DNA of 64,000 nt from Emcibacter sp. (GTDB taxonomy: Bacteria; Pseudomonadota; Alphaproteobacteria; Sphingomonadales; Emcibacteraceae). Position 1 is the first letter of the stretch. The number at the start of each line of letters is the position of its first letter. This document shows positions 3,335 to 21,440 of this stretch, one piece after another. The position numbers were made by a program, and so were the translations under genes. The stretch is taken from positions 124,001-188,000 of the forward strand of contig JAJFIQ010000019.1 of assembly GCA_021774785.1 (NCBI GenBank). Direction: 5' to 3'. The notes below the pieces were generated by a model. The model did no database searches, was not told the DNA's origin, and saw nothing but the letters and a program-made list of their open reading frames with translations.

Positions 3335-3892
3335 GTGACAAAAGAATATTGCAGACCCGCACCCGGCGGTGGAAAATTATATTCCTTTAACGGCGTTTGG
3401 CCAAAACTTGGGGAGGGGGTATTCATTGCCCCCGGTGCCCGCATCATTGGCAACGTTGAAATCGGGGAGGGGTCCAGTGTCTGGTTTAATTGTGTACTCA
3501 GGGGCGATGTGGAAAAGATTCGTGTAGGCAAAGGCACCAATATTCAGGATGATACGGTTGTTCATGTGGACGGCGGCGGAATTCCAACGCTCATTGGCGA
3601 TAATGTACTGATTGGTCATAGCTGCATGATTCATGGCACCACCATCGAGGATAAAGGGTTTGTTGGGCTGGGTGCTGTGACAATGGATGGCTGTTACATT
3701 GAAAGCGAGGGCATGGTCGCAGCAGGTGCTTTGCTCAGTCCGGGAAAGCGCGTTGGAAGCAAAGAATTATGGGTCGGCCGTCCGGCAAAGAAAATCCGCG
3801 ATCTGACTGATGCGGCGTTGGAAGGTATGATGGCGGGGACAGTTGGTTATCAGGAATTGGCTGTGAAATATTTAAAGCAATATAACACTTAA
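3335..3892 (+). CDS. Gamma-class carbonic anhydrase / left-handed beta-helix hexapeptide protein
   Basis: This 185-residue protein is built of hexapeptide repeats (I/V-G-x-x-x-x) that form a left-handed beta helix, as in the gamma carbonic anhydrase family. The zinc-binding histidines are visible as VVHVDGG and GHSCMIHG, so metal binding is likely; whether it hydrates CO2 is not proven, since many YrdA-like members show no activity. The start is GTG at 3335, chosen because a strong AAGGAGG lies six bases upstream and no in-frame ATG fits. It follows argC closely. Confidence 0.88.
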   Translation: MTKEYCRPAPGGGKLYSFNGVWPKLGEGVFIAPGARIIGNVEIGEGSSVWFNCVLRGDVEKIRVGKGTNIQDDTVVHVDGGGIPTLIGDNVLIGHSCMIHGTTIEDKGFVGLGAVTMDGCYIESEGMVAAGALLSPGKRVGSKELWVGRPAKKIRDLTDAALEGMMAGTVGYQELAVKYLKQYNT

Positions 3893-4134
3893 TCAGTCAC
3901 TGTGGCTTTCTCAAGAGCCGTTGCAGCTTCACCCAAAATGCGCCCTTCCAATGATAATTCCAGAAATCTGGTATAATCTTTCGGGTTGGTAATTTTTTGT
4001 TTGGCAACAGGAATAATGTCCATGGAAGTTGCCGCATCCAGTTTATATTTCTGGATAAGCTGCATCATTTCTACACTGATTAGGTCTAGCTCTTTTCTTA
4101 TTTTGGTAATGGTTAAATCATCAGTAGATAACAT
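3889..4134 (-). CDS. Small hypothetical protein
   Basis: An 81-residue, mostly helical protein that I do not recognise. It has no signal peptide, membrane segment or cysteine. Its stop overlaps the end of the convergent carbonic anhydrase gene by four bases. The N-terminal helix (about residues 10-30) loosely recalls an AroQ-type chorismate mutase helix, but the other catalytic residues are not evident, so I do not make that call. The start ATG is at 4134. Confidence 0.55.
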   Translation of the reverse strand: MLSTDDLTITKIRKELDLISVEMMQLIQKYKLDAATSMDIIPVAKQKITNPKDYTRFLELSLEGRILGEAATALEKATVTD

Positions 4135-4217: not shown

Positions 4218-4823
4218 GTGACTTGGATTAAAACCATTTCCTACAAGGAAGCCAAAGGACGCCTGAAACAGATATATGATCGCCTTAAAGGGCCAAATGA
4301 TGCGCTTGATAATATTCTCATCGCCCATAGTTTGCGGCCACATACCCTAGAAGGGCATCTGGCGTTATATAAAAATGTTCTTCATCATACGGCCAACAAA
4401 CTGGATAAGTGGTTTTTGGAGGCAATTGGCACCTATGTCAGTATGCTGAATAAATGTAATTATTGTGTCAATCACCATTTTGAAGGTATGAAACGTCTGG
4501 TTGGAGATGATGCAAAATCCGAGGAAATCCGCCAATCTTTTGTGAATCGGAAACTGGAACAGTCTTTTGATAATAATCAGATCCTTATGCTGGAATATGC
4601 CGAGAAACTAACATTGCGAGCTGTGGATATTGGTGAAGATGATATTAAGTGTTTAAGAAATTCCGGCTATGAAGACGGGGAAATTCTTGAGGTTAATCAG
4701 GTTACAGCCTATTTTAATTATGCCAACCGAACCGTTCTCGGTCTAGGTATATCCCTTGAAGGCGATACTTTAGGACTCTCCCCTAATAATACAGATAACA
4801 GTGAAGACTGGTCGCACAGTTAA
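4218..4823 (+). CDS. Peroxidase-related / AhpD-like carboxymuconolactone decarboxylase family protein
   Basis: This 201-residue protein carries the AhpD core motif C-N-Y-C-V-N-H-H at about residues 74-81, giving the redox-active CxxC and the following histidine of alkylhydroperoxidase-like proteins. The family reduces peroxides or acts as a disulfide-linked redox partner in the cytoplasm. The start is GTG at 4218; an AAAGG lies upstream, and the nearby ATG at 4216 is out of frame. It is a single gene, followed by the ompW regulatory region. Confidence 0.85.
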   Translation: MTWIKTISYKEAKGRLKQIYDRLKGPNDALDNILIAHSLRPHTLEGHLALYKNVLHHTANKLDKWFLEAIGTYVSMLNKCNYCVNHHFEGMKRLVGDDAKSEEIRQSFVNRKLEQSFDNNQILMLEYAEKLTLRAVDIGEDDIKCLRNSGYEDGEILEVNQVTAYFNYANRTVLGLGISLEGDTLGLSPNNTDNSEDWSHS

Positions 4824-4883
4824 TCATCTTAAACATATATTTCAAAAACATCTTTTGTTTAATACATTAAATATTTTTTTTTA

Positions 4884-4897
4884 TTGATTCAAATCAA
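4884..4897 (+). promoter_or_regulatory. FNR/FixK-type binding site upstream of ompW
   Basis: TTGAT-TCAA-ATCAA is an exact match to the TTGAT-N4-ATCAA palindrome bound by FNR, FnrL and FixK. Its centre lies 76 bases upstream of the ompW start codon. ompW is a known FNR-regulated gene in enterobacteria, which supports an oxygen-responsive role here. Confidence 0.75.
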
Positions 4898-4909
4898 GGA
4901 TGGAAATTT

Positions 4910-4965
4910 GTTGTCTCCTTAAAAGTTTCTTTTGTAACCAATAGCAAAAAAGAAAAGGAGACAAC
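4910..4965 (+). promoter_or_regulatory. ompW leader hairpin that encloses the ribosome binding site
   Basis: GTTGTCTCCTT at 4910-4920 is a perfect 11-base inverted repeat of AAGGAGACAAC at 4955-4965. The second arm holds the ompW Shine-Dalgarno (AAGGAG) and ends one base before the ATG. The interior can pair further (TTTCTTTTG against CAAAAAAGAAA with a two-base bulge). If both arms are in the mRNA, ribosome access would be blocked. The repeat could instead be a DNA operator. Confidence 0.65.
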
Positions 4966-4966
4966 C

Positions 4967-5602
4967 ATGAGAAATACTATATTGAAGTCTGTAAGCGCCG
5001 CCGCACTTATTATGACGAGCCTGTCATGTACATCTGTGGCAAAAGAGGCTGGTGATTTTATGATGCGCGGCCGGGCCATTTATATTGTGCCGGATGAGGA
5101 TGCAACGACTTCTATCGGGGGAAATGTTGGTATCAACAATGAAATTGTTCCTGAGCTGGATTTTACCTATTTCCTGACTGATAATGTTGGGGTGGAACTT
5201 ATTCTGGCTACGGGTAAGCACCATGTAATGGCACTGAATACGGCGCTTGGTGCCTCTGCATCACTGGGCAGTGTCATGCTCCTGCCCCCTACGCTGACAC
5301 TACAATATCACTTTAATCCAAAGGGTGATTTTAGCCCCTATGTTGGTGCTGGTGTAAATTATACATTTTATTACAGCGAAAATGCACCCGGTGGTACAAT
5401 TGCAGATATTGATTATAACGATGGTTTTGGCTTTGCTTTGCAAACTGGTTTTGATTTCAAAATTAATGACAATTGGTCATTCAATGCGGATGTGAAAAAA
5501 TACTGGTTGAATACGGATGTTAAGATTAATGGCGGTGCTGTGACGGCTGATGTTGACATTAATCCCTGGATATTTGGTGTTGGCTTTGGCTATATATTTT
5601 AA
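4967..5602 (+). CDS. ompW: OmpW family outer membrane beta-barrel protein
   Basis: This 211-residue protein has a signal peptide (about residues 1-25) and the alternating hydrophobic strands and Gly/Asn-rich turns of a small eight-stranded barrel, ending in an aromatic residue (GFGYIF) as outer membrane proteins do. Segments such as PTLTLQYHF and SPYVGAGVNYTFYY match the OmpW family. OmpW forms a narrow hydrophobic channel thought to pass small nonpolar molecules. The start follows a strong AAGGAG, which is itself inside a hairpin arm; an FNR-type box lies upstream. Expression is therefore likely oxygen-dependent. Confidence 0.9.
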   Translation: MRNTILKSVSAAALIMTSLSCTSVAKEAGDFMMRGRAIYIVPDEDATTSIGGNVGINNEIVPELDFTYFLTDNVGVELILATGKHHVMALNTALGASASLGSVMLLPPTLTLQYHFNPKGDFSPYVGAGVNYTFYYSENAPGGTIADIDYNDGFGFALQTGFDFKINDNWSFNADVKKYWLNTDVKINGGAVTADVDINPWIFGVGFGYIF

Positions 5603-8445: not shown

Positions 8446-8643
8446 GAATAAATCCTTTGATAATAATCCGATAATTCTACAATAAGCGAACTCTAGCCCA
8501 TTTATTTTCCACTTTGTAACGAATCGTGAGGAGAATTCAAGCTTTCTTTGCTTGCGAATGGAAATATTATTAAAGTGTGGCAAAATTATGCTTTCTTACA
8601 TAGGGGACGCAGTGCGCCCCCTATGTAAGAAGATTAAATATCT

Positions 8644-21298: not shown

Positions 21299-21332
21299 AT
21301 TTTGGTGGGGCGTATTATCGGCCCCACCAAAA
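21299..21332 (+). terminator. Terminator of flagellin 1
   Basis: TTTTGGTGGGGC pairs with GCCCCACCAAAA across a short loop: a long, GC-cored hairpin 15 bases after the flagellin stop. Confidence 0.8.
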
Positions 21333-21440
21333 TATACACTTTGGATTTTTGAATATATTGATTATATTTTTAATAATTTTTCATGATTTTTTGTAGATAT
21401 TAGAGTAAACTTTGGAAAGTTGGTATATGTAGAGGATAAG

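Follow-up and report, generated by a model that had tools for sequence, protein, structure and literature searches.

Between its FNR box and its predicted transcription start, the ompW gene of an Emcibacter species carries a core promoter stretch that is complementary to the gene's own translation initiation region, and this property, rather than the exact hairpin, is probably conserved in at least two genera, as far as sequence comparison can tell. The best reading of these data, which we consider evenly poised, is that ompW RNA initiated upstream is silenced by folding back on itself, through an arm encoded in the FNR promoter. The gene lies in a window of 64,000 nucleotides, the whole stretch of DNA that was analysed. 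The inverted repeat, the geometry of the FNR boxes in relatives, the excess of complementarity, its species specificity and the opening energies are all results of computation. The hypothesis grew from these data and the tests were made post hoc, so the p values given below are guides and not proofs.

A set of 83 ompW leaders was reduced to 76 by dropping L021, whose start was wrong, together with the six that had no box (L073, L109, L118, L119, L122 and L123), and to 75 where L023, which repeats L022, was also removed. OmpW relatives on plasmid records, all of less than 60% identity, were left out. The general controls were 262 ordinary genes that a rule selected in 40 stretches and in the window. 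The FNR-box controls consisted of 78 rows taken by hand among the matches listed; 63 of these rows, picked by eye, served in the opening-energy test on sequences cut at the ATG, and 60 hand-picked FNR-box places among the matches listed were used in the test with coding sequence, where the removal of two with early stops left 58.

The ompW leader and its FNR promoter

The ompW coding sequence (4967-5602, + strand, 211 aa) encodes a protein of the OmpW family (Pfam PF03922, 178.5 bits against a cut-off of 24, 1.8e-52). In its leader, the arms GTTGTCTCCTT (4910-4920) and AAGGAGACAAC (4955-4965), both read on the + strand, are 100% complementary over 11 bases at a separation of 34 nt, so that the complementarity claimed for ompW from the letters alone is real. 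The 3' arm contains the Shine-Dalgarno AAGGAG (4955-4960), the end of which lies 6 nt from the ATG at 4967. In the predicted fold, an inner helix formed on the same strand by TTTCTTTT (4926-4933) and AAAAGAAA (4948-4955) is stacked on this outer helix, and RNA 4900-4990 folds at -19 kcal/mol into a single long hairpin (2/200 shuffles fold equally well, z -2.64); RNA from 4932 has scant structure (-2.7 kcal/mol). For a leader that begins at the FNR box, the predicted cost of opening the Shine-Dalgarno is 13.6 kcal/mol, versus 2.8 kcal/mol for the short leader, which agrees with the earlier suggestion that the site would be closed in RNA begun upstream of 4910. Among 60 ORF leaders compared in the window, that of ompW had 11 pairs and the runner-up 8, and both arms were found at a comparable distance at one genomic place only. 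Perfect pairing of at least 11 over the Shine-Dalgarno zone was reached by 26/3000 shuffles of the upstream DNA; taken alone, the repeat is thus roughly a 1% event per leader and is not compelling after a scan of many genes. An Rfam search of 4800-5100, thermometer families included, returned two hits, both far under their gathering scores. Elsewhere in the window, perfect inverted repeats of 14 and 13 pairs, with short loops and a terminator-like shape, are located at 8593-8631 and 21299-21333.

The FNR box TTGATTCAAATCAA (4884-4897, + strand, centre 4890.5) is a perfect match to TTGAT-N4-ATCAA, and a weak match to a -10 element, TAAAAG, is predicted 22 nt past it (4920-4925, + strand). Of 36 ompW leaders drawn from the window's genus, family and order, 35 have a box with at least 7 of the 8 key bases. 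In 22 of the 35 boxed leaders the start codon follows the centre of the box by 64-76 nt, and in 17 of the 35 a hexamer beginning with TA stands exactly 22 nt past the box. Among the FNR-box matches listed for the same genome, TATAAT is found 22 and 23 nt past the box at C19:178360-178435 and C19:547093-547164. Class II Fnr sites centred at -41.5 of start sites have been described in the sphingomonad Sphingopyxis granuli (PMC7713065), and this geometry, together with the spacing of the box, leads us to expect the ompW start at 4932-4934 on the + strand (box centre + 41.5 to 43.5). The 5' arm falls between the FNR box and this predicted start, and mRNA started by FNR should therefore be without the arm. 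The box and its spacing in relatives thus lend support to a class II start near 4932 and to a message that lacks the 5' arm, both of which had been put forward from the sequence. The 36 nt past the box (4898-4933, + strand), referred to here as the core promoter stretch, would lie outside the predicted FNR mRNA; they hold the complements of the initiation region and were used in the shuffle, swap and control tests. A CRP-family helix-turn-helix (profile match, 51.5 bits) is encoded at C19:179250, in an ORF of 265 aa whose product has a cluster of cysteines at the N-terminus and which we take, from its motifs, to be an FNR. The minus-strand FNR-box place at C19:178360-178435 is less than 1 kb from this CRP/FNR-family regulator gene (L259 871-1668, in G000 C19).

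The gene upstream of ompW, at a distance of 143 nt, is a co-directional peroxidase-related gene (4218-4823, + strand, NCBIfam TIGR01926). No terminator-like site was found on the + strand between the two genes, and a simple sigma-70 scan of the + strand from 4500 to 4966 gave zero promoters. A block of about 40 nt upstream of the FNR box (4831-4872), which contains AACAT/ATGTT half-sites, can be made out by eye in 8/10 genus relatives, being absent in G011 and doubtful in G015; it may be the site of a second regulator or an upstream promoter. Further upstream, a minus-strand ORF of 81 aa (3889-4134) has no NCBIfam match. In several genus relatives, the nearest upstream ORF of ompW is a minus-strand ORF of 82-85 aa.

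Arms and targets in related species

The sequence-only reading had proposed that compensatory changes be sought in relatives and had named their absence as a refutation; in the ten genus relatives compared, pairing was no better than with shuffled partners, so that the exact pairs do not pass this check. The window's pairs gave standard pairs in 47/110 cells in these relatives. Fixed-register covariation found 60% of cells paired for the window hairpin, a level reached by 351/500 shuffles, and 410/500 shuffles were as high as the genus hairpin. By comparison of the aligned leaders, the exact 11-bp hairpin is private to the window's genome. At the ribosome site, the other aligned genus members have GGAAAC, a consensus from which the window's 3' arm departs, and GTTTC at 4925-4929 is kept in 9/10 aligned genus members, with GTTTTC in G011. 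The window's leader is also 7 nt longer than those of G015, G001, G002 and G011. A search of 40 genomes with the whole leader DNA returned the ompW leaders of genus relatives and no closer relative; E. coli genomes gave no similar DNA.

The relatives have arms of their own. In G015, G001, G002 and G009, the promoter contains TCTCATT (or CTTCATT, TCTTATT), whose partner at the start codon is AATGAGA or AATGAAA, and an additional helix is formed by GTTTC and GAAAC, the latter at the ribosome site. G011 has a GGTGGTTT-type stretch complementary to its own first codons, and G013 (L007), whose leader exceeds those of most sister species by some 75-80 nt, nevertheless has a -10 region complementary to its own ribosome site and start codon. 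Pairing is weak in G006, G008 and G010. Different arms again are found in the same promoter stretch in genera g9, g24 and g3. Across relatives, the positions of the arms vary between box+1 and box+36, and no motif common to them was seen when they were checked by eye. Judging from the sequences, TCTCATT matches the start codon in G015 and G001 where TCTCCTT in the window's spacer matches the ribosome site, and the window's species may have rebuilt the pairing in a new register. Because arm and target change register as they drift together, covariation in fixed columns is blind to them, and it was the property itself that was tested.

Dinucleotide shuffles of the 36 nt past the box gave a mean z of -0.96 for the 76 ompW leaders, 18 of which were at p <=0.05; with the same 36-nt geometry, the 262 ordinary genes had a mean z of +0.05, with 13 at p <=0.05. 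Taking one shuffle rank per genus, p was 0.0125, and 21/27 genera had a rank below 0.5. In a swap within the window's genus, the fit of each promoter to its own start site was better than that to the start sites of sister species (p 0.0002; with the window and two near-duplicate loci removed, p 0.0046). In genus g9, none of 20,000 permutations reached the observed value. No clear signal was obtained in g5 (6 loci, p 0.85), g73 (4 loci, p 0.50) or g10 (8 loci, p 0.31, falling to 0.04 when the region stopped at the ATG). Ending the region at the ATG in the window's genus gave p 0.048, or 0.61 without the window and its near-duplicates, and the signal of this genus rests partly on the first codons. 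A swap over 27 genera with one locus per genus had a median z of -4.4, with composition less well controlled across genera, and loci from beyond the order search (33 tried, 24 with a usable box) gave z -3.6 with composition uncontrolled; for this reason, neither the value of these extra loci nor the all-genera swap values are leaned on here.

When promoter stretches were ranked for their fit to ompW initiation regions, alongside those of 173 other genes from the genus, each region's own stretch had a mean rank of 0.087, with 6/11 at <=0.05; 5/173 of these control genes were at <=0.05 when ranked likewise, as were 6/44 of the control genes in family f5. The reverse ranking, of the own initiation region among control ones, was weaker (1/11 in g1 and 3/14 in g9). 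The signal became weaker when the promoter stretch and the target were split; in the genus, it was clearest for the second half of the stretch against the Shine-Dalgarno (mean rank 0.175, 4/11 at <=0.05). The FNR box and codons 16-26 had no significant signal. Weaker excesses, both absent inside the two genera, were obtained over all loci for the DNA before the box (z -3.6) and for codons 5-15 (z -2.5). The direction of the upstream gene, from rough calls with 3 uncalled, had no clear effect (13/52 co-directional vs 2/21 divergent at <=0.05). Swap tests on the 262 ordinary genes and on four small, eye-picked groups of other FNR-box leaders were flat, with a lowest p of 0.12. One of three other FNR-box gene groups, with 12 members and a AGAGGAAC-like ribosome site, had a swap p of 0.0086, which means that the feature may not be confined to ompW. 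This AGAGGAAC-like group comprises G000:C19:576681-576762 and its relatives (L207, L210, L213, L217, L221, L224, L238 and others).

Opening energies and alternative explanations

The cost of opening the Shine-Dalgarno was compared between long and short leaders. The predicted difference had a mean of 3.22 kcal/mol in 75 ompW leaders (32 at >=4 kcal/mol) and of 5.11 kcal/mol in the window's genus (7/11 at >=4), and it averaged 1.39 kcal/mol in the 58 other FNR-box genes, picked among the matches listed (4 at >=4), and 0.65 kcal/mol in the 262 ordinary genes (14 at >=4). Among ompW loci fetched after the idea had arisen, 19/42 were at >=4 kcal/mol. The excess of ompW persists for assumed starts from box+30 to box+39, and mean ranks against dinucleotide shuffles were 0.286 for ompW, 0.111 for the window's genus, 0.481 for the FNR-box controls and 0.509 for ordinary genes. 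The group means and the ranks are for sequences that include coding sequence; with sequences cut at the ATG, the FNR-box controls were raised as well (16/63 at >=4 kcal/mol). With the cut sequences, all ompW leaders were above these controls (p 0.014) and the window's genus was not (p 0.43). With coding sequence, the FNR-box controls are level with ordinary genes on the shuffle rank, but the raw opening difference of these controls still exceeds that of ordinary genes (p 0.0007).

This general, if modest, rise in FNR-box leaders is one of several observations expected if the window hairpin were a chance inverted repeat, formed by a pyrimidine-rich spacer and a purine-rich ribosome site, with no RNA that holds both arms. 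Eleven pairs are within the reach of shuffled DNA at the frequency given above, pairing is not conserved column by column, the FNR mRNA should be without the arm, and the window locus alone ranks no better than 0.02 against shuffles. This explanation nevertheless seems unlikely to us, given that the same stretch has excess complementarity, specific to the species, in two genera and that an excess (z -5.2) is also found in 50 loci outside them, in a sample that mixes genera and has composition less controlled.

It is improbable that the inverted repeats act as DNA, as operator halves or a cruciform, or that they stem from template-switch mutation in short intergenic spacers. The signal does survive without G-U pairs and is nearly equal on the other strand (z -7.7, against -9.3 on the sense strand), and the departure of the window's 3' arm from GGAAAC and the extra 7 nt of its leader point the same way. 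However, the ordinary genes of the same geometry lack the own-pair excess, which makes a general mutational bias unlikely, and the arms have no motif in common by eye. A DNA operator had also been mentioned in the sequence-only reading and, tested as an operator copy in direct-repeat orientation, gave no significant signal.

About equally improbable, finally, is a main ompW mRNA that starts upstream of the arms, the hairpin being a thermometer, a switch opened by an sRNA or a damper of translation: the spread of the arms over the 36 nt past the box is compatible with any start before the box and the block before the box is recognisable in most genus relatives, but the spacing from box to -10 is that of class II, as are the Fnr sites described in S. 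granuli (PMC7713065), and E. coli ompW is described as having one start, 29 nt before the ATG (PMC4886647).

Proposed mechanism and comparable systems

In fold-back silencing as proposed here, a class II FNR promoter would drive ompW, and the core DNA between the box and the start would encode an anti-initiation arm. RNA entering from upstream, by read-through of the neighbour or from an upstream promoter, would carry this arm and fold back, hiding the Shine-Dalgarno and, in some relatives, the start codon as well. RNA started by FNR at about 4932-4934 would begin past the arm and stay open, and OmpW would be made mainly from oxygen-limited, FNR-driven transcription. The window's 11-bp helix would then be one species' version of a property that relatives keep with other letters and in other registers. 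We infer the start point of ompW, the existence of the upstream RNA and the effect on translation from these predictions. Read-through of the peroxidase-related gene is a possible source of the long RNA in the window. Some genus members form good hairpins but have just a small ORF upstream, on the minus strand, and read-through from a neighbour is not an obvious source of RNA in them; with the nearest ORF small and on the minus strand in several members, an upstream promoter would be needed there, perhaps within the conserved block before the box. The earlier idea that promoter choice switches ompW translation is partly supported: in this wider form it gains support because the different arms of relatives fit their own initiation regions, but the exact pairs show no compensatory conservation and the simple scan gave no second promoter. 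More tentatively, and with somewhat less than even confidence, we propose for this alphaproteobacterial group that the ompW FNR promoter is under selection for an anti-initiation arm that drifts with its target, promoter choice alone gating translation by oxygen without an extra regulator. If true, this would be a chromosomal, oxygen-linked lock, supplied by the promoter itself against RNA begun elsewhere. A swap test of this type could uncover cases that column-wise covariation misses.

E. coli ompW, like that of the window, is an FNR-dependent OmpW porin gene with a short leader, and FNR, ArcA, NarL, CRP and H-NS are described as its regulators (PMC4886647). It differs in having FNR sites at -81.5 and -126.5 and a single start site, and a check of that study's main text for the words hairpin and translation came up empty (PMC4886647). 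The closest model is gene e (lysozyme) of phage T4, with which ompW would share the fold-back of the initiation region in long transcripts (PMC3014915). According to the account given there, the longer early transcripts of gene e fold into an inhibitory structure, with a 100-fold drop in lysozyme synthesis, messages begun at the proximal late promoters are missing its 5' part and are translated well, and in related phages the late promoter sits in the region that encodes the 5' strand (PMC3014915). Gene e serves phage lysis timing, with late promoters and experimental proof, whereas ompW encodes a chromosomal porin, has an FNR promoter and is a case of prediction only. In Bacillus subtilis, a hairpin has been proposed to block translation of read-through from an upstream promoter into sigG, and RNA begun at sigG's own promoter is unable to form it; unlike that of ompW, this hairpin has more than 20 pairs and is described for sporulation control, with no FNR or oxygen link in that account (PMC5942855).

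Searches of open-licence papers on ompW with FNR, translation, sRNA, hairpin, start sites or thermometer turned up no such switch. The ompW proposal is also similar to the situation in IS10/Tn10, in which external read-through RNA folds over the ribosome site of the transposase and RNA from the internal promoter does not, with the difference that there a mobile element shields itself against outside promoters. A phage gene is known to have a fold-back lock, one has been proposed for a sporulation gene and a transposon uses one; ompW, if the proposal is true, would be a chromosomal case linked to oxygen.
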